Positions 1-18,500 of a DNA stretch of 64,000 bases are shown here, one piece after another (position 1 is the first letter of the stretch; every line of letters begins with the position of its first letter). This DNA comes from Paracoccus fistulariae (GTDB lineage Bacteria > Pseudomonadota > Alphaproteobacteria > Rhodobacterales > Rhodobacteraceae): contig NZ_CP067136.1 of NCBI RefSeq assembly GCF_028553785.1, positions 3,222,501 through 3,286,500 on the forward strand. The letters run 5' to 3'. Made by a program: the position numbers and the translations under genes. The notes under the pieces were generated by a model. It made no database searches. It was not told the origin of the DNA and was given only the letters and a program-made list of their open reading frames with translations.

Positions 1-2310
1 GGCCGCGATGCCCGCATCGTTCAGCCGGGTCAGCGTCTCGCCCAGACCGGTCATGCCGCAATCCAGCGCGTGATTGTTGGCCAGCGTGACGGCGTCGATC
101 CCGGCCTGTTGCAACGCCGCGACCGTGTTATCGGGATCGCACCAGCCCAGATATTTCTTGTTGCCCTGCAAGCCCGCATCGGGGCGCGAGGCAAGTGGCA
201 CTTCAAGGTTTGCGACCGTCAGATGCGACTGCGCCAGAATGCCGCGCAGATTTGCCAGCGAATAGCCGTGACCATGCGTGCCAAGAACCCGTTGCAGATC
301 GGGCAGGCGAGGGTGGCTCATATAGCTTTCGCCAAAGCCGATATCGCCAAGGAACAGCGCGGTGAACTGATCGGGATCGGCGTCCGCGCGCGGCACGGGC
401 TGGGCATGTTCGGCACGCTCTTCGATGATCTGCGGATCCACGACGCCCAGATCCAGCCCAAGCGCCCTGACAGCCGCACCAAGCGCATCGGGATCATCGA
501 CGGGCACGACCCGCTCACCGGCCAGACGCTGGATGGCGGCCGCGACCAGATCGGCGTCCTGCCAGTCCGCGTCGGGCGACAGGATCGCCAGATCGATACG
601 CTCGACGCCCAGACCCTCTTCGACGATCTGGCTGGGGGTCGCCTCGATCACGGCGGCGTCGATCTGCGCGTCCCAGTCCAGCGCCCCGGCATCGGTCAGC
701 CGCCGCAGCGGCGTCACCGTGTCGGATTGCGAGATCAGCGCGACGTTACTTGCCGCCTCGGTGGCGGCGGCCTCGATCCGGCGGCGCATCTGGGCGGTCT
801 GGTCCTGCGTGCCGATCAACGCGATGACCGGCATGCGCGATGGCGCGCCATCCGGGAACAGCATGTCCAGCATCGCATCGGTGATCTGGTGGCCACGGTC
901 GCCCATCGCGTGGATCTGCATATGGATGCCCGGGCGGCTGTTCACCTCGCAAATGGCGGCCTTGTTGTCGCGCCACGAGACCGCGGGATCGGTGCTGATG
1001 AAATCCACCCCGCAGACATCCAGCCGGACGATCCGGGCGGCCTGCACGGCCAGTTCGCGGTTGTCGGGGTGGATCATGTCGGTGATGTCGATGCCTTCCC
1101 CCCCGCGCGAGACGTTGGATTCCCGCCGCAGCAGCACGGTCTGGCCCTTTTTCGGAACGCTGTCAGGTTGCAGCCCCTGTTCGGCCAGCACTTCCAGCGC
1201 GTTGTCATCCAGTTTCAGCAGCCGCATGATCGCCATGCTGCTGGGCAGCACCCGTTCACGTTCGGGGCGAAGGTTTTCACGCTCGATCAGTTTCGCGACG
1301 GTCGAGGTGCCGTCGCCCGTGACCTGCGCGGCGCGGCGATGGCAGGCGGCGACCATGCGGCCATCGATGATCAGCAGGCGATATTCCTCGCCCTCGATCA
1401 GGCTTTCGACCAGCACATGCGGGGACACTTCTTGCGCGCGTTTGAAGGCCCGCGCGAGATGCGCCTCATCCGTGACCCCGACAGTCACGCCGCGCCCCAT
1501 ATTCCCATCGCGCGGCTTCACCACGACGGGAAATCCGATCCGTGCCGCAAATCGCGCCGCCGCGCTTGCGTTCCGGGTGACATATTGCTGCGCCACCGGC
1601 AGGCCCGCCTGTTGCAGAATACGATGCGCAATCCCCTTGTTGCGCGACAGCGCGCCCCCGATCGAAGAGGTATTCGTCGATTCCGACCCCTTGAGCACAT
1701 GTGAGTACTGCCCCAGTCCAAGCTGGATGTAATGCGACTGATGCAGCACCGACCAGGGGATGCCGCGCGCAATGGCGGCCTTTGCGATCTTCAGCGAATC
1801 CGCAGCCGGGGTCTCGCGCCGCGTCGCGGCCATGAAGCCGGTCAGTTCTTCGATGAACAGATCGTAAAGCGCCCGGGCCTTTGCCCCGTCCAGCATGGCC
1901 TGTGCCATCGCGATGGCCACCCTGGCGGCGGCCAGACCCACGCTTTCGGATTTGACTTCGTAAAGCGCGATCCCCTGCCGTTCCAGTTCGGCGGGGCTGG
2001 TGACATAATTGGCTGATGCCGTTTCCCGCCAGGAACAGAACTTGACCGGCCAGAGGGCATATCGCTGTGTCAGGATGGCCAGGACTTCGATGGCACCGGC
2101 CATTGGCACCGGTGCCTTCGCGCGGGCAAGGCGGCGCCAGGCGGGACAGTCGCTGATCGTTGCCTGAAGGCGTCGCAGCATTTTGCCCAGCTCTGCGATC
2201 GCGGCGGGGGGCATTTCAAGATCGGCGGCGCCCTCGATCTGCACGTGAAGCGCAAGGCGGCGGGTATGAATATTTCCCGGCTGGAACAGGCGGCTTTCGA
2301 TAATCTGCAT
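1..2310 (-). CDS. Cyanophycin-synthetase-like ATP-grasp ligase fused to a CapA domain (3' end beyond window)
   Basis: The frame is open from ATG at 2310 to the left edge, 770 codons with no stop. The ATG follows AAGAAAGG at good spacing and lies 29 bases after the HlyD stop. Residues 1 to about 160 resemble the CphA N-terminal domain. Residues about 190-470 are an ATP-grasp domain with PVVVKPRDGNMGRG near 260, the run GGEGIDITDMIHP, and the metal-binding EVNSRPGIHM near 455. From about 490 a shortened Mur-ligase-like part follows, where the usual GTNGKTTT nucleotide loop reads GTQDQTAQ, so that second ATPase site looks dead. From about 650 a CapA-type phosphoesterase-fold domain begins (FLGDIGFGESY) and includes NHALDCG near 745. 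CphA condenses amino acids into a polymer and CapA proteins act in poly-gamma-glutamate capsules. A role in making an amino-acid amide or polymer is inference; the fusion is directly visible. Confidence 0.85.
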   Translation of the reverse strand, partial: MQIIESRLFQPGNIHTRRLALHVQIEGAADLEMPPAAIAELGKMLRRLQATISDCPAWRRLARAKAPVPMAGAIEVLAILTQRYALWPVKFCSWRETASANYVTSPAELERQGIALYEVKSESVGLAAARVAIAMAQAMLDGAKARALYDLFIEELTGFMAATRRETPAADSLKIAKAAIARGIPWSVLHQSHYIQLGLGQYSHVLKGSESTNTSSIGGALSRNKGIAHRILQQAGLPVAQQYVTRNASAAARFAARIGFPVVVKPRDGNMGRGVTVGVTDEAHLARAFKRAQEVSPHVLVESLIEGEEYRLLIIDGRMVAACHRRAAQVTGDGTSTVAKLIERENLRPERERVLPSSMAIMRLLKLDDNALEVLAEQGLQPDSVPKKGQTVLLRRESNVSRGGEGIDITDMIHPDNRELAVQAARIVRLDVCGVDFISTDPAVSWRDNKAAICEVNSRPGIHMQIHAMGDRGHQITDAMLDMLFPDGAPSRMPVIALIGTQDQTAQMRRRIEAAATEAASNVALISQSDTVTPLRRLTDAGALDWDAQIDAAVIEATPSQIVEEGLGVERIDLAILSPDADWQDADLVAAAIQRLAGERVVPVDDPDALGAAVRALGLDLGVVDPQIIEERAEHAQPVPRADADPDQFTALFLGDIGFGESYMSHPRLPDLQRVLGTHGHGYSLANLRGILAQSHLTVANLEVPLASRPDAGLQGNKKYLGWCDPDNTVAALQQAGIDAVTLANNHALDCGMTGLGETLTRLNDAGIAA

Positions 2311-2339
2311 CAGGCAACCTTTCTTGGTGTCAAATATCG

Positions 2340-3671
2340 TCAGCTCTCGCGCATGCCGCGCGAAATGAACTGGGTAATGGGCGAAAGAAGGTAGTCCAAA
2401 GTCGTTCGGGCGCCGGTATGGATCATGACTTCGGCGCTCATCCCCGGCTGGATGGGCACGGTTCCGGTTTCGACATCGCTGCGGTTCAGCGTGACGCGGG
2501 CAAGGTAATAGGGCGCGCCGCTGCGTGGATCGACCAGACGGTCGGCCGAGACGGTCTGCACCACCCCCTCAATCGGGGTCTGACTGCGGCGGTTCAGCGC
2601 GGACAGCCAGACCTGCGCCTCTTGCCCCTGAGAGACCTGATCGATATCCAGCGGATCTATCGTCGCCTGCACCACCAGCTTGTCGCTGACGGGCACGATC
2701 TCCATCAATGTCTGGCCTGCGGCGATCACGCCCCCGACCGTGTGGATTTGCAGGCCGGTGACTACGCCTGTCACGGGGGCGCGGATTTCGGTGCGGCCCA
2801 TCACATCCTGCGCCGCCGCAAGCCGCTGGGCCAGCTCATAGGCGCGGGCGCGGGTGTCGCGCAATTCCTGCACGACCTCGGTGGCCATGCTGTTTTTCAG
2901 CTCGGACCGGCGCAGGGCGGTTTCCTCGATCTTTTGCCGCGCGGTGCCGATGGCGGCGCGATAGCTGGCGATCTCTCCCTGCAGCTCGGCCTGTTGCCGC
3001 TTCAATTGCAGCAGACGCGGGCGGTCGGTCAGGTTGCGGTCATAGAGCGATTGCACATCGGCAATTTCCTGATCCAGCAGGGACAGCCGGCTTTCGGACG
3101 AGGTGATCTGATCCTCCAGCCCCTGAATCTGGGTGTTCAGCCCGCCGATGGTGCGCTGAAAGATGGTCAGACGGTCCTGTAGCAGCGTCCGGCGACTGTC
3201 GAAAATGCTCTCTTGCCCACGCATCACGCCCTGCACGGCCTGATCGCCGATCTTGCGGCTGAGTTCGGGCGGGAAGCTGATCTGATCGTCGCCCTGCTGT
3301 TCGGCGACCAGCCGGGCCTCGGTCGCGCGGGCCTCGAAATATTGCGACTGGATTTCATTGAGGCTGGAGGATGGGACCGTGTTCTGCAGCCGGATCAGGG
3401 GTTGCCCGGCCTCGACCGCATCGCCGTCGCGGACCAGGATCCCGTCCACGATACCGCCTTCCAGATGCTGCACCGTGCGCACATTGGTATCTACGCTGAC
3501 AATGCCCGGCGCGACCACCGCACCTTCCAGTGGCGCGGTCGCCGCCCAAAGATAGAATGTGCCGAAAAACACGGCGATGACGGCGAAACCGCCAAGGGCG
3601 AGACGCCGACCAAAGGGCTGTGCGTCGTCAAAGGGAACAGCCGGGGGCGATGCGCTGTCGGGCAGGGTCAT
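2340..3671 (-). CDS. HlyD-family periplasmic adaptor (membrane fusion protein) of a type I-like exporter
   Basis: The 443-residue protein has a short cytoplasmic N-terminus, one membrane segment at about residues 25-48, a lipoyl-like half (VVAPGIVSVDTNVRTVQHLEGG), a long coiled-coil hairpin at about residues 100-260, the second lipoyl half (RAPVTGVVTGLQIHTVGGVI) and a C-terminal beta-barrel. This is the usual order and length for adaptors of PrtD/HlyB-type exporters, which bridge the inner-membrane ABC pump and a TolC-type outer-membrane channel. Its ATG overlaps the stop of the ABC gene by four bases (ATGA), so the two are translationally coupled. No TolC gene or RTX-type substrate is in the window. 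Confidence 0.92.
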   Translation of the reverse strand: MTLPDSASPPAVPFDDAQPFGRRLALGGFAVIAVFFGTFYLWAATAPLEGAVVAPGIVSVDTNVRTVQHLEGGIVDGILVRDGDAVEAGQPLIRLQNTVPSSSLNEIQSQYFEARATEARLVAEQQGDDQISFPPELSRKIGDQAVQGVMRGQESIFDSRRTLLQDRLTIFQRTIGGLNTQIQGLEDQITSSESRLSLLDQEIADVQSLYDRNLTDRPRLLQLKRQQAELQGEIASYRAAIGTARQKIEETALRRSELKNSMATEVVQELRDTRARAYELAQRLAAAQDVMGRTEIRAPVTGVVTGLQIHTVGGVIAAGQTLMEIVPVSDKLVVQATIDPLDIDQVSQGQEAQVWLSALNRRSQTPIEGVVQTVSADRLVDPRSGAPYYLARVTLNRSDVETGTVPIQPGMSAEVMIHTGARTTLDYLLSPITQFISRGMRES

Positions 3672-5383
3672 GTCACGCTCCTCAGATGGTCGCGTGCACG
3701 GCGCAGCGTGTCATCGCCGGTATTCTCGGTCACCTCATGCGAGCGTTTGCCGCCAAGGATCAGGAAACGATCCGCCATCCGCGCGATCTGCGAGCCGTGG
3801 ATGGATTGGGTGACGATGATCGACGCACCGCCCGATTTCAGATCGGCCACCGCCGTCACCATCAACCGCCGGGACGCGGTGTCCAGATTGGCCGAGGGTT
3901 CGTCCAGCACGATGATGCGCGGGCGGCGGTAAAAGGCCCGGGCCAGCGCGATCCGCTTGCGCTCGCTGCCCGACATGCCAAAGCCATCGCCGCTGATCTG
4001 GGTGTCATAGCCATCGGGCAGGTGGATGATCTTGTCATGGATGCCGACCAGCTTCGCGGCGGCGACCACATCCTCGAAATCGCCCTCGCCCATGCGGGCG
4101 ATGTTCTCGCGGATGGTGCCGGAAAACAGCTCGGTATGCTGGGGCAGAAAGCCGACCATGTCGCAGCGGGCCTCGGGGGCGAGGCGCGACAGTTCGATAT
4201 CGCCCAGTCGGATCTGCCCGTCGCGCGGCGACAGCACGCCGACCAGCAGCCGTGACAGGGTGGTCTTGCCTGTGCCCGCAGTGCCGTTCACGACCAGCAT
4301 TTCGCCCGGGGCAAGGCGCAGCGACAGGCGGTTGAACAGATAGAAGCGTTCGCCCGGGTGACGATAGCTCATCTGATCCAGGATCAGCGCCGCATCCGGC
4401 ACATCCTCGGGGACCGAGGCCTGCGCCATATCCACATCCGCCAGCCGCTTGCGGATCGCCTGATAGGCGGTCAGCGTCTCGCGCAGGTTGCGGTAATTGC
4501 TGATCGCCTCATTGGCCAGCGAAAAGCCGAAGCCCGCCATGATCCGTGCCGCAAAGATGCCGCCGAAGGTCAGTGATCCGATCACCACCAGCCAGACCCC
4601 GACGGCGATCATGGCGATGCGCAGGAATTGCCCGACGCCACGGCGCAGCGTCTTGAACATGATCTGGCGGTCCTGCACCTGCTGCTTTTCCTGCAGCCGC
4701 GCCGTGGCCGTGCGCCGCCATCTTTCCGTCAGCGCGGCGCCCATGGAAAACGCCCCGACGCTTTCGCGGTTCTGGCCCGCCGCCTGCACCAGTGCCGTCT
4801 GTTCGCGATGCGCCACGCCTGACGCGCGACGGCCATCGCGGGTCAGGCTGTCGCTGAGCACGCCGATGATCAGCAGCACCACCAGCGCCGCGACCCCGAT
4901 GATGCCCAGAAGGGGGTGGATCAGAAAGATCGCGATGAAGAAGATCGGGACGAAGATCACGTCCATCCAGGACACCAGCGGTCCCGACACGAAGGCGCGC
5001 AGGGTTTCCAGATAGCCCAGCGATTCAATGATATCGGCGCTGTGTTCGACGGGGCGATGGCCGCCAAGCGCCTGCCCGACCAGTTGCGGGCCAAAGCGCC
5101 GCTCGATCCAGACGCCCCACCTGACCAGCATCCGGCGGCGCAGCACATCCAGCGCCATGCCGCAGCAGATGGCGACAACCGCCATGGCGGTCAGCATGAC
5201 CAGCGTTTCGATGCTGCGGCTGGCGGGCACCCGGTCCAGCGCCTGGATCAGATAAAGCGGCATGGCGAATTTCAGCAGGTTGAAGCAGGTCGTGAAGATC
5301 ATCACGACCACCAGCCCGGGCCGAGAGATCCGCCACGCCGCGCCAAGCGCGGATTCGGTGCCTGCTTTTCTTCGTCTGGCCAT
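3668..5383 (-). CDS. Type I secretion-like ABC transporter (fused permease and ATPase, PrtD family)
   Basis: The 571-residue half-transporter has an N-terminal membrane domain of about six helices (residues 25-300) and a C-terminal ATPase. Walker A is GTAGTGKTT, the Q-loop is FLPQHTELF, and Walker B is IIVLDEPSANLD. Two conserved spots are odd: the signature reads MSGSERKR instead of LSGGQxQR, and the H-loop region reads IIVTQS, with no histidine after the threonine. Family members work as dimers with an HlyD adaptor, encoded directly downstream, to export proteins or peptides in one step. The unknown substrate may be linked to the neighbouring ligase. The adjacent P-loop gene ends 98 bases upstream and is probably co-transcribed. 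Confidence 0.9.
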   Translation of the reverse strand: MARRRKAGTESALGAAWRISRPGLVVVMIFTTCFNLLKFAMPLYLIQALDRVPASRSIETLVMLTAMAVVAICCGMALDVLRRRMLVRWGVWIERRFGPQLVGQALGGHRPVEHSADIIESLGYLETLRAFVSGPLVSWMDVIFVPIFFIAIFLIHPLLGIIGVAALVVLLIIGVLSDSLTRDGRRASGVAHREQTALVQAAGQNRESVGAFSMGAALTERWRRTATARLQEKQQVQDRQIMFKTLRRGVGQFLRIAMIAVGVWLVVIGSLTFGGIFAARIMAGFGFSLANEAISNYRNLRETLTAYQAIRKRLADVDMAQASVPEDVPDAALILDQMSYRHPGERFYLFNRLSLRLAPGEMLVVNGTAGTGKTTLSRLLVGVLSPRDGQIRLGDIELSRLAPEARCDMVGFLPQHTELFSGTIRENIARMGEGDFEDVVAAAKLVGIHDKIIHLPDGYDTQISGDGFGMSGSERKRIALARAFYRRPRIIVLDEPSANLDTASRRLMVTAVADLKSGGASIIVTQSIHGSQIARMADRFLILGGKRSHEVTENTGDDTLRRARDHLRSVT

Positions 5384-5414
5384 TACTTGCTATCACTCGA
5401 TACTTGATCACTGC

Positions 5415-5447
5415 CCTGCCGGCTTCCGGGGAACGGATCCCGGCAGG
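5415..5447 (-). other. Intercistronic inverted repeat
   Basis: CCTGCCGG at 5415-5422 pairs with CCGGCAGG at 5440-5447 around a 17-base loop, in the gap between the P-loop gene and the ABC gene. There is no T-run on the minus strand, so it may tune or protect the transcript rather than end it. Confidence 0.35.
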
Positions 5448-5481
5448 GGTTGGCTGTTGTGGCAGGATGCCGTGGCTGCGC

Positions 5482-7218
5482 CTATTCGGCGGCGGCGATA
5501 TTCACGCGCCGCTGGAAGGCCAGGCCGATATCTGCGCGATCCGCGTCGTTGTCGGCGCGCGCCGTCAGGTCGGGCGCATCGTCCGAGCCATCGTCCTCAT
5601 CCGCGAATTCGTCATCGCCAAGGGCCGGGGGCGGCCATGCGACCCCATCATCCGCGTGCATGCTGCGAAAGCTGGCCTTGCGCAGCATGTCGCGAATGTT
5701 ATCCAGCACCTGATTGATATCCTCATGGCCATGCCGCTGCGTTGTCAGGCTTGCCAGAAGCGATGCGACAGCCTCTGGCAGATCCGCGGCAGGGGCGTCG
5801 ATCACGGCCTTGACGGCGGCAATCGGCGGTGTGGCCGCGCCGAGGAAGGCGGGCTGGTAATCCGTCTTTTTCAGTCGCGGGATGCGCAGCTCGATGGTGC
5901 CGAAATCCGTCACCCAGTCCTGCAACCGGTTGCCGTTGCGCCAGTCGCGGCGATTGCTGTCATGCCTGCCATAGGCGGTGCCGCAGATCTGGTCGGTATC
6001 GGCCTGCATCACGTAATGCGCCGCGCAATCCAGGATATCGCGGGCCAGGGTCGTGCCGCTGGCGCCCATGTGGCGCCCGTCGGCGGTCAGCATCACCATA
6101 TTCCCCAATTCGACCGTCGCCGGGATGACGCCGCGCGACAGGGCTTTCAGCGCAGGCTGCAGGTGACTGTCGGCGCAGCTTCGGGCCGCCCGGTCGCGGA
6201 TCGCGCTCATCAGCGCGCCTTGCTGCAATTCCCAGGGCGAAAACACCCGCAGCCCGGTCGAGGCCTCGGCCTCTCGCACCCCAAGAGGGGAACGGCCCAG
6301 ACGCCCGCTGAGGCCCAGCACCGCGTGTCCGGCGCTGTTCAGCAGATCGACGCCATATTTCGCACCCATGGCGTCATAGGCGGCGAAAACGGTGCCGATG
6401 GTAAAGTCCATGATCCGCTTGCTGTGGATCAATTGCGAGGTTTCCAGCTGTTGCAGACCGTCCGCAATCTCGATCACGGCCACCTCGCAGCCTTGGGCGG
6501 CGGCGTAATTCATCAGTCGGCAGGTGGCGCTTTCGATATCGGCGATGCTGACCAGATAGGTGCTGGCATGGCCCGCATCGGTGAAATCCAGCGACAGATC
6601 GGCGCCGGCATCGCGCACGATCCACATGTCACCGCCCGCCCCGGTACCGGTGATCTTCAGCGCCGCGACCTTGTGGCCCAGCCGCTTGAAGCCGCGCACA
6701 AGCGAGGTCGCCGTCAGCGTCTTGCCCGCATTCATCGAGGTGCCCAGAGACAGCACCGCCGGGATCGAGGGGGCGAAATCCGGCGCAGGCACCGCAAATT
6801 GCATCACGTTCAGCCTTGTGCCGTCGGCATCGCCCAGAATGCCCAGCGGAGTGATCCGCGTCGGCGGTTTCATCCGCTGATGCCGGGACATCTCCAGCGA
6901 GGCGATGCCCCCTGCCGCGACCAGATCGCAAGGCCCCAGATCTGCGCCGATCTGTGCCTCGTACTGGTCCGGGGCATAGCGGTTGCCAAAGCAGACGATG
7001 ATCTCATCGCCCGGAAAAAGATGGGCGCGACGCCCGTCGGTCAGCTCCAGCTTGGTGTGTTTTCCGATCTCATCGATCCGCGCCAGAACCAGATCGCCCG
7101 GGTTGGGGCGCAAATCGCCGGTCAACAATGTCTGATATGCCTTGCGTGGTACCCTTCGGGTGCTGAATGCGCGCTTTGCCCGCGAAATGCGCGGTCTGCC
7201 GATCGTGACGTGGACCAT
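5482..7218 (-). CDS. P-loop NTPase (DUF1611/DgcN-like core) with an IS256-transposase-like C-terminal segment
   Basis: I chose the ATG at 7218 (578 aa) because GGGAGA lies nine bases upstream; an ATG at 7338 would add 40 atypical residues. Residues 20-140 look like small beta domains (GDLVLARIDE, LFPGDEIIV). A P-loop follows at 159-167 (GTSMNAGKT), with VAALKITGTGAGGD after it and an acidic VIEIADG strand at 248-254, resembling the dethiobiotin-synthetase-like fold of DUF1611/DgcN proteins. Residues about 411-461 closely resemble the segment that precedes the catalytic domain in IS256/Mutator transposases (RNGNRLQDWVTDFGTIELRI and PRLKKTDYQPAFLG), but no DDE domain follows. The tail from 520 is acidic and low in complexity. 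It is first gene of the export/ligase operon. No function is claimed. Confidence 0.8.
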   Translation of the reverse strand: MVHVTIGRPRISRAKRAFSTRRVPRKAYQTLLTGDLRPNPGDLVLARIDEIGKHTKLELTDGRRAHLFPGDEIIVCFGNRYAPDQYEAQIGADLGPCDLVAAGGIASLEMSRHQRMKPPTRITPLGILGDADGTRLNVMQFAVPAPDFAPSIPAVLSLGTSMNAGKTLTATSLVRGFKRLGHKVAALKITGTGAGGDMWIVRDAGADLSLDFTDAGHASTYLVSIADIESATCRLMNYAAAQGCEVAVIEIADGLQQLETSQLIHSKRIMDFTIGTVFAAYDAMGAKYGVDLLNSAGHAVLGLSGRLGRSPLGVREAEASTGLRVFSPWELQQGALMSAIRDRAARSCADSHLQPALKALSRGVIPATVELGNMVMLTADGRHMGASGTTLARDILDCAAHYVMQADTDQICGTAYGRHDSNRRDWRNGNRLQDWVTDFGTIELRIPRLKKTDYQPAFLGAATPPIAAVKAVIDAPAADLPEAVASLLASLTTQRHGHEDINQVLDNIRDMLRKASFRSMHADDGVAWPPPALGDDEFADEDDGSDDAPDLTARADNDADRADIGLAFQRRVNIAAAE

Positions 7219-7855: not shown

Positions 7856-8731
7856 TCAGAACCCCATCGCCCGCCCGATCGTTTGCGCCTGCAGCATGCC
7901 GCGGGCGCTGTGGCCTACATCCTCGGCGCGCACCAGACGCCAGTTGAAGGGCAGGCCCCGGCTTTCGGCGATCTTGCGGGCCATCTCATAGGTGCGTTCA
8001 CCGCGTGTCAGCCGGTTGTCCCCCTGCCGCATCGCCTCATCCGTCGTCACAAGGCTTTTCCGGCCTGTATCCTTCTGGCCCAGATAGATGGTGACGGGCG
8101 CGGCCAGATATTCGCGCAGCCTGCGATCCGGCTGAAAGCTGTCCGGCATGCCGCCATAGCCGTAGGGGATCTGCTCTTCGTCAGTCGGCAGGACATAGGT
8201 CGAGGGGTTGGCGATGATGATACGCGCGACCTCATCGGGCATGGCATAGGCGGCGACGCGCGACAGGAATTGCCCGCCTGCGGAATGGCCGAACAGATAG
8301 ACCGGGGCATCGGGATCGCCGTTCTGTTCCTGCGCCCAATCGACCAGATCCCCGATCATCTCGACCGTCCATTCCTCTTCCGGACGCAGCTTTCCGGCGC
8401 GCAGCAGGCCGCCGCGATGGTAGGCCCAGTTGGGAAAGCTCTCCTTGCTGAAACGCGGCGCATAGACCGAAAAGCAGCCCTCATCCGCCAGCGGGATCGA
8501 GCCCCGAAGATAGGACCGCGCCGTGCGGCTGTTGCCGTGAAAGATGATCAGGATCGAAGGCGCGGCGCAGGCCCGTGGCTGATAGACAAAGACCGGCAGT
8601 TCTTTTCCGTCGATATTGGCCGTGCGCCTGCTGATCTCGGCGGTGTCGGCGCTGGCGATTGTCGTCCAGATGGCCGAGGCCAGAAATCCGGCCCATGTCA
8701 CGATCCTTCCGGTCAGGTCACGATATCCCAT
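7856..8731 (-). CDS. Secreted alpha/beta hydrolase (esterase/PHB-depolymerase-like)
   Basis: The 291-residue protein starts with a hydrophobic export-type segment (residues 10-27, ending near ASADT). The alpha/beta-hydrolase core shows the oxyanion-side motif IIFHGNS, a nucleophile elbow GHSAGGQ, a downstream acidic region and a C-terminal catalytic histidine in DVGHSARG. The layout fits single-domain esterases of the polyhydroxybutyrate depolymerase/feruloyl esterase type. The substrate is unknown. A diverged paralogue starts 54 bases upstream on the same strand, sharing FHGNS, the GxSAG elbow, the PST(Y/H)VLP motif and the terminal HSA. Confidence 0.75.
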   Translation of the reverse strand: MGYRDLTGRIVTWAGFLASAIWTTIASADTAEISRRTANIDGKELPVFVYQPRACAAPSILIIFHGNSRTARSYLRGSIPLADEGCFSVYAPRFSKESFPNWAYHRGGLLRAGKLRPEEEWTVEMIGDLVDWAQEQNGDPDAPVYLFGHSAGGQFLSRVAAYAMPDEVARIIIANPSTYVLPTDEEQIPYGYGGMPDSFQPDRRLREYLAAPVTIYLGQKDTGRKSLVTTDEAMRQGDNRLTRGERTYEMARKIAESRGLPFNWRLVRAEDVGHSARGMLQAQTIGRAMGF

Positions 8732-8785: not shown

Positions 8786-9673
8786 TCAAGCCGGGTCCGC
8801 TGCGCCGAAGGCGGGTTTTCGCACATGCGCGGCCGGGTCGGCAGGGCAAAGATGCGCGGCAGCGGGCATTTCCAGCATCTGACAGGCACGGCATGGCTGC
8901 AACATGGCCTGCGCCGAATGATCGACGCCGGGCACCAGATCGATCCGCCAGTTGAAGTCGCAGCGCAGCCGCAGCGCGGTCATCGCCGCCAGATTGAAGG
9001 TCCTTGTCGCGCGCGCCAGCCGGTCGCTCCCTTGCCGTTTCGCGGCCAGACTGCGCGACAGGCTGGGATCGGTGGCCTCGCGATCCTCCAGCCCCACGGA
9101 CAGCGTGATCGGACGCTGCAAATAGCGCCGTTGAAGCGCCTGACCAAAGGGTTTGGGAAAGGCGCCGCCCAGCCCGTAAGGCGCAGCTTCGCCCGTCGGA
9201 TAGCGTCCCAGAACCGGCAGGACATGGGTCGAGGGGCTGACGATCACGATCCGCTGCGGCGCGCGTTCAAACCCCTGAAAGGCCGCGACGCGCGACAGGA
9301 ACTGCGCCCCGGCCGAAAAGCCCCATAGCCAATAGGGCGCGTCCCCGGACGGGTGAAACTGCCGGACAATCGGCTCGACAAGGCGCGTGGTCCATTGCTG
9401 GCTGGGGCGCATGCGGCGTCGGCCATCGGTGATATTGCCGCGCTGATAGCGGTCCGGGGGGAAGCGCCGCTTGTCAAACAACGGCGCGGCAACGGTGACG
9501 CCGCAGGCTTCCGATAGAGGGATGGCGAAATCGCGCAGCATTTCTGCATTGGCGCTGTTGCCGTGAAACAGCATCAGCAGCCCGCCGCGATCTTCGGCGG
9601 GGCGATGCGTGAAAACCGTTAGCCTGACCCCCTCCACGCTGACATCCTGCCGCGCCGAGCCTTGCGATATCAC
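8786..9673 (-). CDS. Alpha/beta hydrolase, paralogue of the downstream gene
   Basis: The 295-residue product most likely starts at GTG 9673, with AAGGA about eleven bases upstream. It has LFHGNSA, the nucleophile elbow GFSAGAQ, a SPSTHVLPV strand and the probable catalytic histidine in GVDHSAQAM. Unlike its neighbour it has no signal peptide, so it should stay in the cytoplasm. About 40 residues after the last conserved motif contain several Cys and Ala and look like an extension. Substrate unknown; the pair probably arose by tandem duplication. Confidence 0.7.
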   Translation of the reverse strand: MISQGSARQDVSVEGVRLTVFTHRPAEDRGGLLMLFHGNSANAEMLRDFAIPLSEACGVTVAAPLFDKRRFPPDRYQRGNITDGRRRMRPSQQWTTRLVEPIVRQFHPSGDAPYWLWGFSAGAQFLSRVAAFQGFERAPQRIVIVSPSTHVLPVLGRYPTGEAAPYGLGGAFPKPFGQALQRRYLQRPITLSVGLEDREATDPSLSRSLAAKRQGSDRLARATRTFNLAAMTALRLRCDFNWRIDLVPGVDHSAQAMLQPCRACQMLEMPAAAHLCPADPAAHVRKPAFGAADPA

Positions 9674-15547: not shown

Positions 15548-18500
15548 ATGTCCCCGACGTCTCTTGCCGCTTTTACCCTTGATGCCAAATATCGCGACGA
15601 AGCCGATCTTCTGCCGGAACTGATCGCGCAGGCCGATCTGTCCGAGGCCGAGCGGATCGCCATTACCGCCCGCGCCGCCGATCTGGTGCGCCGGATCCGC
15701 AAAGAGGCCAAGCCTTCGCTGATGGAACATTTCCTGTCGGAATACGGGCTGTCCACGCGCGAAGGTGTCGCGCTGATGTGTCTGGCCGAGGCGATGCTGC
15801 GCGTGCCCGACAAGATGACCATCGACGCGCTGATCGAAGACAAGATCGCGCCCTCGGACTGGGGCAAGCATCTGGGTGAGGCGTCCTCGTCGCTGGTCAA
15901 TGCCTCGACCTGGGCGCTGATGCTGACGGGCAAGGTTCTGGACGACGATCAGCCCGGCATTGCAGGCACGCTGCGCGGCGCGATCCGCCGTCTGGGCGAG
16001 CCGGTGATCCGCACCGCCGTGGGTCGGGCGATGCGTGAAATGGGCCGGCAATTCGTGCTGGGCCAGACCATCGACGCCGCGCTGGAAAATGCGCGCGCCT
16101 ATGAAAAGCAGGGCTATACCTACAGCTATGACATGCTGGGCGAGGCGGCGATGACGGCCGAGGATGCCCAGCGTTATGCCCGCGAATATGCCAATGCCAT
16201 CGCCGCCATCGCCAAATCCTGCACCAAGGGCTCGGTCGAGGCCAATCCGGGCATTTCGATCAAGCTGTCGGCGCTGCATCCGCGCTATGAGGTCGCGCAG
16301 GAAGAGCGTGTCCTGCAAGAGCTTGTCCCGGTGGTGCTGGATCTGGCCCGCAAGGCCAAGGCAGGCGGCATGGGGATGAATATCGATGCCGAGGAACAGG
16401 ACCGGCTGGTGATCTCTCTGAAGGTGATCGAGGCGGTTCTGTCCGATCCCTCGCTGGCCGGATGGGACGGGTTCGGCGTGGTCGTGCAGGCCTATGGCAA
16501 GCGCGCGGGCCAGACCATCGACTGGCTGTATCGGACTGCGCAGCGTCTGGATCGCAAGATCATGGTGCGTCTGGTCAAGGGCGCCTATTGGGATACCGAG
16601 ATCAAGCGGGCGCAGGTCGAGGGTTTCCCCGGCTTTACCCTGTTCACCAACAAATCCGCCACCGATGTCAGCTATATCGCCAATGCCCGCAAGCTGATCG
16701 GCTATGCCGACCGGATCTATCCGCAATTTGCCACCCATAACGCGCAAAGCGTGGCCGCGATTCTGGAAATGGTCGGCGGTATCAATTTCGAATTCCAGCG
16801 CCTGCACGGCATGGGAGAGCGCCTGCATGACATCGTGATCCGTGAAACCAAGGGGCGCTGCCGCATCTATGCGCCGGTCGGGGCGCATCGCGATCTGCTG
16901 GCCTATCTGGTGCGCCGCCTGCTGGAAAACGGCGCGAACTCATCCTTCGTGCATCAGATCGTGGATGAGGAGGTGACCCCCGAAGAGGTCGCCCGCGATC
17001 CCTTTGACGAACTGGTCACGGCGCGTCCGCCTGCGACGCTGGTGCAGCCTGACGATCTGTTTGGCGCCGGTCGCGAGAATTCGGCGGGCTTCGATCTGAC
17101 CGATGAAGAGACGCTGGCCCGGATCGAAAAGGCCCGTTCGGGCGATCTGCCCGATGCGGGGCCGCTGACCGCTTCCGATGCCATGGGAACCACCCGCCCC
17201 GTCCTGAACCCGGCCACGGGAGAGAGCGTGGCGCAAGTGACCGAAGCCTCGGCCGAGACGGTCGCGCAGGCGATTGCCGATGCGCGTCCATGGGATGCTC
17301 CGGCCGCTGATCGCGCCGCCGTGCTGCGCCGCGCGGCTGACCTTTACGAAGAAAACTACGGTCCCATCTTTGCCGCCCTTGGCCGCGAGGCCGGGAAATC
17401 GCTGGGCGATGCGGTGGGCGAATTGCGCGAGGCCGTGGATTTCCTGCGCTATTACGCCCAGCAAGGCGAACATCGTACCGAGGCACCGCGCGGCATCATC
17501 ACCGCGATCAGCCCGTGGAACTTTCCGCTGGCCATCTTCACCGGTCAGATCGCCGCGGCGCTGATGGCCGGGAATGCTGTGCTGGCGAAACCGGCCGAGC
17601 AGACGCCGGTGGTCGCGGCCATCGCGACCCGGCTGCTGCATCAGGCCGGTGTGCCTGCCAGCGCCCTGCAACTGCTGCCCGGCGATGGCGCGACGGTGGG
17701 TGCGGCGCTGACCGGCGACGCGCGCATCAATGGCGTCGTCTTTACCGGATCGACCGACACCGCGAAGATCATCGCCCGCAGCATGGCCAAACACATGGCA
17801 CCCGGCACCCCGCTGATCGCGGAAACCGGCGGTCTGAACGCGATGATCGTCGATTCCACCGCGCTGCCGGAACAGGCGGTGCGCGATATCGTCATGTCCT
17901 CGTTCCGCTCTGCCGGTCAGCGCTGCTCGGCGCTGCGCTGCCTCTATGTGCAAGAGGATGTCGCCCCGCATCTGATCCAGATGCTGAAAGGCGCGATGGA
18001 TGAGTTGACGGTGGGCGATCCCTGGCTGCTGTCCACCGATGTCGGCCCGGTGATCGATGATGAGGCGCAGGACGGCATCTCGGATTATCTGAGCAACAAT
18101 GCCAATCGCGTTCTGCACAAGTTGGACGTGCCCGCGCAGGGCCATTTCATCCCGCCGGCCATGTTGCAGGTTTCCGGCATCGAGGATCTGGAACGCGAGA
18201 TCTTTGGTCCGGTCCTGCATGTCGCGACCTATCGTGCCCGCGATTTGGACAAGGTCGTGGCGGCGATCAACGGGCGTGGCTTCGGTCTGACCTTTGGTCT
18301 GCACACCCGGATCGATTCCCGCGTGCAAGAGGTCACCGACGCGATCCATGTCGGCAATATCTATGTGAACCGCAACCAGATCGGCGCCATCGTCGGCAGT
18401 CAGCCCTTTGGCGGCGAAGGCCTGTCGGGCACTGGTCCCAAGGCTGGCGGTCCGCTGTATCTGGCGCGCTTCTTTGCGCCGGAACTGCCGCAGGCCGAGG

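Follow-up and report, generated by a model that had tools for sequence, protein, structure and literature searches.

A six-gene unit of Paracoccus fistulariae with a CphA-derived ligase, an ABC/HlyD exporter and PahZ1-like hydrolases as a candidate aspartate-type polyamide system

At one end of a 64 kb stretch of the 3.7 Mb genome of Paracoccus fistulariae (G000:C1:3222501-3286500, the whole stretch that was analysed, hereafter the window), six co-directional genes form a unit that may make, export and turn over a polyamide or oligoamide of the aspartate type, a reading to which we assign a probability of about one half. A preliminary description of the window had recognized four of these genes, co-directional and spaced by a 98-base gap, a 4-base overlap and a 29-base gap, and had proposed that they synthesize and export an amino-acid polymer or amide. 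Their positions, shared direction and spacing proved exact on the open reading frame map of the window. However, the unit extends further: two genes for PahZ1-like hydrolases (H1 and H2) lie upstream in the same direction, 54 bases apart and with 637 bases between H1 and the gene of a P-loop nucleoside triphosphatase (NTPase), and are part of the unit, which thus consists of six genes rather than four. The proposal itself persists in an altered form, since a conserved amide ligase–exporter unit is indeed present, now with hydrolases and with an aspartate backbone suggested in place of D-glutamate chemistry. No description of the six-gene unit was found in the literature searched. Its features are as follows.

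1..2310, minus strand: ligase–CapA fusion (1007 amino acids in the assembly), with CphA-like N and ATP-grasp domains, a predicted dead Mur remnant and a CapA/PGA_cap domain
841..1800, minus strand: ATP-grasp (G) domain, about residues 171-490 of the fusion (alignments, residue table)
451..843, minus strand: truncated Mur-ligase (M domain) remnant of the fusion (alignments, residue table)
1..357, minus strand: N-terminal part of the CapA/PGA_cap domain, which spans residues 652-909 and lies mostly beyond the window (Pfam, motifs)
2340..3671, minus strand: HlyD-type membrane fusion protein, 443 amino acids (TIGR01843)
3668..5383, minus strand: PrtD-like ATP-binding cassette (ABC) exporter with fused transmembrane and nucleotide-binding domains, 571 amino acids (PF00005/PF00664)
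5482..7218, minus strand: P-loop NTPase with a predicted SIMIBI fold, weakly DUF1611-like, 578 amino acids (fold, Pfam match below cut-off)
6718..6744, minus strand: P-loop GTSMNAGKT of the NTPase
5821..6054, minus strand: IS256/Mutator-transposase-derived domain within the NTPase C-terminal tail (PF00872, E 1.4e-9)
7856..8731, minus strand: PahZ1-like alpha/beta hydrolase H1, 291 amino acids, with a Ser-Asp-His triad
8786..9673, minus strand: PahZ1-like alpha/beta hydrolase H2, 295 amino acids, with Glu at the Asp column of the triad

The ligase–CapA gene starts at position 2310 and is cut by the window edge, with 713 further bases lying outside the window in the assembly, and the start of the NTPase gene at 7218 is backed by the N-termini of homologues. 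A promoter and terminator scan returned sites no more numerous than in shuffles, and the 637-base gap upstream of the NTPase gene is poorly conserved among 5 loci.

The ligase and the hydrolases

Two unrelated enzyme families, the CphA lineage and PahZ1, in both of which the characterized enzymes act on poly-aspartate chains, appear to be represented in this one locus, and the evidence therefore points to an aspartate backbone, as far as sequence comparison can tell. The first is found in the fusion protein, whose architecture had been read correctly in the preliminary description, apart from the Mur remnant, which went unmentioned there: residues 1-577 match PRK14016/CphA (positions 1-571 of 871 in the NCBIfam profile), followed by PGA_cap (PF09587) on residues 652-909 (E 8.7e-50, 170 bits against a cut-off of 27). 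The best matches of the ligase in the Protein Data Bank (PDB) are CphA1 chains (283.9 bits), and the next are 7ta5 and 8fxh (~181 bits), both of which we take to be of the CphA2 type. Members of the CphA lineage are reported to build a poly-aspartate backbone (PMC10206079).

The active-site residues were compared using CphA numbering verified on the TeCphA1 alignment (7wac). The G domain of the P. fistulariae ligase retains K265, R311, R325, N399, S401, E455 and N457, which include the ATP-grasp phosphate and Mg residues of CphA1 (K265, R311, R325, E455 and N457). Met271 occupies the position of CphA His267 and His463 that of CphA Arg458, and the P-loop of the CphA1 M domain, GTNGKTT, reads GTQDQTA. 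A residue table, which leaves out the Lys220 and Asp431 equivalents, covered 20 modules of the fusion clade (including the solitary ligases of genome G365 and both modules of tandem proteins), 11 other ligases of the system, and 22 canonical CphA1 sequences, with the non-canonical L007 and L017 (labelled 'CphA1' in the tree) left out of the latter. The Arg309 equivalent is present in 20/20, 10/11 and 22/22 of these, respectively, the Arg323 equivalent in 20/20, 8/11 and 22/22, and the Asn394 equivalent in 19 of the 20 fusion-clade modules. Arg323 and Asn394 of TeCphA1 are described as holding the beta-carboxylate of the incoming aspartate (PMC9427784), and it is from these two residues, the ancestry of the ligase and the hydrolases that we infer aspartate as the probable monomer. 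The N-terminal HxxEH primer-making motif is found in 0/20, 1/11 and 18/22, and the M-domain P-loop in 0/20, 0/11 and 22/22. Since the ATP-grasp residues are kept but His267 and Arg458 are lost, one ATP-grasp site looks alive, with a chemistry that would differ from that of CphA1, and the arginine-adding Mur site is, judging from its residues, dead and truncated.

The fusion ligase thus resembles CphA1 (PRK14016, TIGR02068; PDB 7lg5, 7wac) in its N and ATP-grasp domains, which align over residues 1-577, and in the kept phosphate/Mg residues and Asn394/Arg323 equivalents. Unlike CphA1, it lacks HxxEH, His267 and Arg458, has a Mur site predicted to be dead and truncated, carries CapA in place of the remaining Mur domain, and is encoded next to an exporter. 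It also differs from the presumed CphA2 chains in its lower similarity to them than to CphA1 (181 vs. 284 bits), its fused CapA, and the linked exporter and hydrolases. The single working site predicted for the fusion ligase is nevertheless a point of likeness to CphA2, which is described as working with a single active site (PMC10206079). In a tree without CphA2 sequences, all 20 ligases of the fusion group fall into a single clade with 100/99 support. Production of cyanophycin itself was considered and rejected, because the M domain reads as dead and the P. fistulariae genome holds no second CphA-like match at E <= 1e-40.

The second family is represented by H1 and H2, which match PahZ1 in the PDB with E 1.7e-37 and 7.4e-28, respectively, and which at E <= 0.001 match PahZ1 and LpqC only. 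A profile of 25 chosen relatives, searched at the same threshold, found two PahZ1 entries (1.5e-65 and 4.1e-60), LpqC (8.4e-56) and nothing else. H1 is 37% identical to the KT-1 piece of PahZ1 over all 242 residues (PDB 6ve6, 9o7u) and keeps the catalytic triad, of which Ser and His are present in 25/25 relatives and Asp in 24/25. By eye and hydropathy, H1 has a moderately hydrophobic, signal-peptide-like N-terminus, and none was seen in H2. PahZ1 enzymes, which are reported to cleave the amide bonds between aspartate units, were isolated as degraders of synthetic polyaspartate (PMC4456602); the enzyme of Pedobacter KP-2 is described there as cutting beta-amide but not alpha bonds, as acting best on L-Asp/D-Asp junctions, and as requiring at least three aspartate units. 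Unlike these known enzymes, H1 and H2 are encoded in a putative biosynthesis and export locus.

Gene order and co-inheritance

The ligase query (1e-40) matched 15 of the 101 genomes of the genus, 11 of which carry the CapA fusion. The NTPase was found in 21 of the 101, with at least 67% identity in 11 and 40-45% in the remaining matches, and an H1-like hydrolase (1e-20) in 11. The ligase–CapA fusion, the NTPase at >=67% identity and the H1-like hydrolase occur in an identical set of 11 genomes (Fisher p 6e-15, uncorrected for kinship or the shared locus). When the Sphingomonas PahZ1 was used as an outside query at 1e-6, 20/101 genomes matched, 19 of them among the 21 with the NTPase (Fisher p 2.5e-17, uncorrected for kinship). 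The PahZ1 and NTPase matches lie 111-2371 bases apart, and 18 of the 19 pairs, which come from 18 genomes as G378 has two, are separated by less than 720 bases. The exceptions are G306 and G381 (NTPase but no PahZ1 match), G312 (a weak PahZ1 match without the NTPase) and G375 (both, on different contigs).

Eleven fetched relatives share the order NTPase-ABC-HlyD-ligase(s)-CapA, and in the twelfth, L070, a stand-alone CapA follows HlyD with no ligase between them. Two ligase modules stand in tandem before CapA in G322, G327 and G344 and one in the other eight, and G365 has three extra solitary ligases. The close form of the unit is rare and patchy (11/101 in the genus, 2/295 in a family sample): the ligase matched 24 of the 295 family-sample genomes, but the full fusion is limited to P. 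fistulariae and G066, with the CapA part found in G253, and a search of 384 further class-sample genomes with the CapA part at 1e-30 returned no other fusion.

A wider view was obtained by searching an 84,980-species collection with an alignment of the NTPase, which gave at least 528 relatives, from which 78 named loci were kept. These include Cyanobacteria, Alpha-, Beta- and Gammaproteobacteria, Desulfobacterales and Bdellovibrionales. The full order occurs in 13 of the 78 (a set that largely overlaps the 11 fetched relatives and is not to be summed with it), and NTPase-ABC-HlyD-ligase without CapA, on the same strand, in 7 more. The preliminary description had listed a lack of conserved gene order first among the results that would refute its proposal; as the order is kept in the 11 fetched relatives and in the 7 loci without CapA, reaching another proteobacterial class, the proposal of a unit withstands that test. 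An H1/H2-like hydrolase is present in 48/78 loci, and a PahZ1-like gene in 18 of the 20 ligase-bearing ones, the other two being cut by contig ends. Among 20 genomes hand-picked from the 78 loci, mostly where a hydrolase had already been seen, 18 have a PahZ1 match, and coordinate mapping places one at the locus in 17.

On plasmids, 302 records match the NTPase query, and among the 40 listed, 8 cover the NTPase part. Seven of these 8, among the matches listed, have a PahZ1-like gene within ~100-620 bases of the NTPase. Among the matches listed, seven more records show a PahZ1-like match but have no NTPase row; in the three of them that were inspected (Agarilytica, Nostoc and Rhizobium), the cassette is not beside the PahZ1-like gene. 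On a Microvirga plasmid, where the NTPase bears the annotation 'transposase', a 1004-residue ligase–CapA protein is annotated 'CapA family protein' and is accompanied by a tetratricopeptide repeat gene, HlyD and ABC on the opposite strand.

Several neighbourhoods were observed in passing. Sister cassettes (hydrolase, NTPase and ABC) on the Paracoccus plasmids L149 and L150 stand beside an annotated S8 peptidase and an RNA polymerase sigma factor, and similar families occur, by motif and clustering only, near L097, L101, L109, L128, L141, L142, L143 and L147. In Chlorogloeopsis and Nostoc (L107, L105, L108 and L110), the NTPase and ABC genes follow what appears by eye to be a two-component system, and in L107 a separate CapA gene (PF09587) occurs as well. 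In ten loci (L117, L121, L126, L129, L132, L136, L137, L138, L144 and L145), the hydrolase is accompanied by a gene from a single family, whose member in L117 is a phosphate-selective porin O/P (PF07396).

The CapA domain, the exporter and the NTPase

The motifs GD, NLE, NNHxxD, HWG and GHGAH of the P. fistulariae CapA domain are complete and its metal motifs are kept, and in some relatives one or more of the motif patterns are unmatched. The only PDB matches of the domain at E <= 0.01 are chains of MslH, which is described as a calcium-dependent lasso-peptide epimerase (PMC10406935). Residues aligned with MslH Glu44, Asn87, His88, Asp91 and His295 (PDB 8gq9) are present, so that 5/8 of the MslH set of two His/Asp dyads and four metal ligands are aligned and kept, with Asp11 and His259 judged by motif only. 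In the cyanobacterial CapA of L107, by contrast, Gly stands at the position of MslH His261; the P. fistulariae protein has the same HWG motif, and this His seems to be lost from the family. A further difference from MslH is that CapA is here fused to an ATP-grasp ligase and predicted to be cytosolic: hydropathy revealed no transmembrane segment in the fusion, and its CapA part should therefore lie in the cytosol. Cap/Pgs systems consist of a Mur-type ligase (CapB/PgsB), a membrane protein (CapC/PgsC) and a membrane-bound CapA. In contrast to these, CapA is here within a fusion without a transmembrane segment, and no CapB/PgsB or CapC/PgsC genes lie between the six genes, the search being limited to the locus.

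The HlyD adaptor named in the preliminary description is secure (TIGR01843, 405 bits), with one hydrophobic segment at residue 23 by hydropathy. Its PrtD-like ABC pump needs a qualification, as the match to TIGR01842 (PrtD) reaches 414 bits but falls under the 510 cut-off. Likewise, TolC is missing from the locus, as had been stated, but TolC-family (OEP) matches occur in two places elsewhere in the genome.

The NTPase had been called a DUF1611-type protein, and a match to DUF1611 (PF07755) does exist. However, it is weak (E 0.005, 16.6 bits against a gathering score of 25), and the link to DgcN and D-glutamate that had been built on it found no other support. The AlphaFold model of the NTPase is only moderately confident (pLDDT 71), which limits the claim to a class: its Foldseek neighbours are signal recognition particle GTPases, dethiobiotin synthetase, HypB, MeaB and CTP synthetase, a group that we take to be the SIMIBI class, and the protein looks like a SIMIBI NTPase. 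With DUF1611/DgcN and MobB P-loop proteins it shares this predicted type of fold and sub-threshold matches (to both MobB and DUF1611 in L107); unlike them, it scores below curated cut-offs and has an ABC partner in 69/78 loci.

This partnership was measured with a hidden Markov model (HMM) built from 4 ABC proteins of the study and applied within 1500 bases, either downstream on the same strand or divergently upstream. An ABC gene adjoins the NTPase in 69 of 78 loci; for the 269 genes lying over 6 kb off, the figure is 11. An earlier, stricter motif, which the HMM replaced, had given 18/78 downstream and 4 divergent. Of the 9 loci missed by the HMM, L112 and L113 run out of sequence within 1.4 kb, while L133, L146 and L148 have ABC pieces ~1 kb downstream of the NTPase, and L130 has an ABC gene ~3 kb upstream. 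No function for this conserved NTPase-exporter pair turned up in the literature searched.

The tail domain of the NTPase, unmentioned in the preliminary description, is ~31-47% identical to IS256 transposases (among the plasmid matches listed), but an IS256 remnant disrupting the gene was ruled out: the tail is in frame and present in 11/12 fetched relatives, missing only from the most distant, L070, and thus represents a captured domain rather than a fresh insertion. In Microvirga and in the Rhodobacterales fusion clade, the IS256/Mutator N-terminal piece forms a conserved domain at the C-terminus of the NTPase, and the NTPase of Microvirga ossetica is annotated 'transposase'.

A possible pathway and its alternatives

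In the aspartate polyamide pathway considered here, the CphA-derived ATP-grasp site would activate a carboxylate in the cytosol and add an acidic amino acid, without the arginine side chains of cyanophycin, to a chain whose length and linkage (alpha or beta) could take several forms. The fused CapA may act on this chain, most likely as a metal-dependent modifier, i.e., an epimerase or a hydrolase. The ABC/HlyD pair would move the product outwards, probably with a TolC encoded elsewhere, and the SIMIBI NTPase may cooperate with the pump in gating or priming. Finally, a periplasmic H1 and a cytosolic H2 would trim or degrade the product.

Several observations weigh against this pathway. Two CphA residues required for aspartate addition, the catalytic His267, which sits between the chain end and the gamma-phosphate of ATP, and Arg458, which lies by the alpha-carboxylate of the incoming aspartate (PMC9427784), are both present in 22/22 CphA1 sequences; His267 occurs in 0/20 fusion-clade modules and 0/11 other system ligases, and Arg458 in 1/20 and 3/11, respectively. 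With both lost, the monomer may not be aspartate. The 31 system ligases are not a single group in the tree, which requires at least two label changes; this would mean repeated recruitment or divergence of this type of ligase, or else a misleading root or misleading long branches. LpqC, called a putative polyhydroxybutyrate depolymerase, is nearly as close to the hydrolases as PahZ1, so that their similarity to PahZ1 would not by itself establish PahZ1 activity. H2, with Glu at the Asp column, is the one exception in the triad, and in L056 (G371, ~2916-3733) the H1 homologue is split over two reading frames. There is also an apparent mismatch in linkage, since CphA is reported to add aspartate via the C-terminal backbone carboxylate of the chain (PMC10206079, PMC9427784) and KP-2 PahZ1 to cleave beta bonds and not alpha bonds. 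Lastly, 12 of the 20 picked NTPase genomes have no CphA-like ligase at E <= 1e-25 (the other 8 have CphA-like matches, canonical or otherwise). The core of NTPase, pump and hydrolase therefore does not depend on such a ligase, and the substrate shared by the core may be something else.

The main rival to the polyamide is a small peptide-like specialized metabolite, to which one or two ATP-grasp modules would each add one residue, with export by ABC/HlyD and with the hydrolases serving in maturation or self-protection; this is possible, if on the unlikely side. The varying number of modules (tandem in G322, G327 and G344, with the solitary extras of G365) fits such a product, as does the patchy distribution in the genus (11/101). 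Across the 20 fusion-clade modules, the residue at the CphA Arg458 position is highly variable, as would be the case if the monomers change. FemAB-like proteins add residues from aminoacyl-tRNA, and FemAB/LPG_synthase_C-like genes stand beside some ligase loci (L062 and L069 by Pfam; L063, L074, L089, L094 and L099 by tblastn), where they might do the same. Against a small peptide, the alignment of the ligase with CphA begins at residue 1 and takes in the entire ATP-grasp part; a PahZ1-like gene accompanies nearly all ligase loci (18/20), and KP-2 PahZ1 is reported to need at least three aspartate units (PMC4456602). Graspetide loci likewise combine an ATP-grasp ligase with ABC and HlyD genes, but the ligase here is CphA-type rather than of the type described for graspetides (PMC8939145). 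A graspetide locus would also have a precursor peptide gene next to its ligase; here, the poorly conserved stretch is the 637-base gap upstream of the NTPase gene.

An improbable alternative is that the polymer dealt with by the core of NTPase, ABC and PahZ1-like hydrolase is an ester or of some other kind, which the CphA-derived ligase and CapA decorate in the fusion clade. The 12/20 genomes without a CphA-like ligase would be explained in this way, and the L117 hydrolase (E 1.6e-11) and H1 (E 5e-7) match the polyhydroxyalkanoate depolymerase model NF050058, both below its cut-off. In Crocosphaera (L115), however, the core is present and its hydrolase, located near the NTPase, shares 47% identity with the characterized KT-1 PahZ1.

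That the genes constitute a type I protein secretion system, with a protein cargo modified by the ligase, is very unlikely. The ABC and HlyD proteins are of the PrtD/TIGR01843 kind, and frames with RTX repeats occur near the full locus L059 (genome G378, 1-1747) and the solitary-ligase locus L065 (genome G365, reverse orientation, ~16050-17747), where an RTX substrate is conceivable. However, an amide ligase is linked to the exporter, the PrtD score is below its cut-off, and the preliminary description was right that no RTX protein is present: neither the 64 kb window nor the adjoining 10 kb on the left, where an RTX substrate would have told against the earlier proposal, holds an RTX-rich frame (the rest of the genome being unsearched for RTX), and the maximum there is 2 GGxGxD motifs, in an 88-codon frame. 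Of the 78 named loci, only L080 (14 motifs; its contig is, by length, that of L059) and L111 (9) exceed 3 motifs in any one open frame of their fetched flanks.

Least probable of all is a beta-Asp-Arg polymer made by a cyanophycin system or by one like CphA2, an enzyme that polymerizes beta-Asp-Arg dipeptides. This is a reading which the ranking of the PDB matches (CphA1, then the presumed CphA2 chains) and the single site of CphA2 would allow, but which the loss of His267, the separate clade of the fusion ligases and the lack of a second CphA-like match in the genome at E <= 1e-40 speak against.

The unit is thus a dedicated and conserved one, joining an amide ligase to an ABC/HlyD exporter, and it differs from the standard type I secretion, Cap/Pgs and CphA systems, as the preliminary description had held for the first two. 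Its ligase would descend from cyanophycin synthetase with a single site left and might make an arginine-free polymer, and the CapA fused to this ligase is predicted to be cytosolic. More broadly, and only tentatively, bacteria may make a natural poly- or oligo-aspartate, perhaps beta-linked and with some D residues as set by the fused CapA, and secrete it via an ABC/HlyD pump dedicated to it and equipped with an NTPase of its own, with PahZ1 enzymes for its native turnover and with a cassette that ranges from Cyanobacteria to Proteobacteria; we regard this larger picture as doubtful at present. For the PahZ1 family, the co-inheritance of its relatives beside a CphA-derived ligase and an exporter offers a testable natural role.

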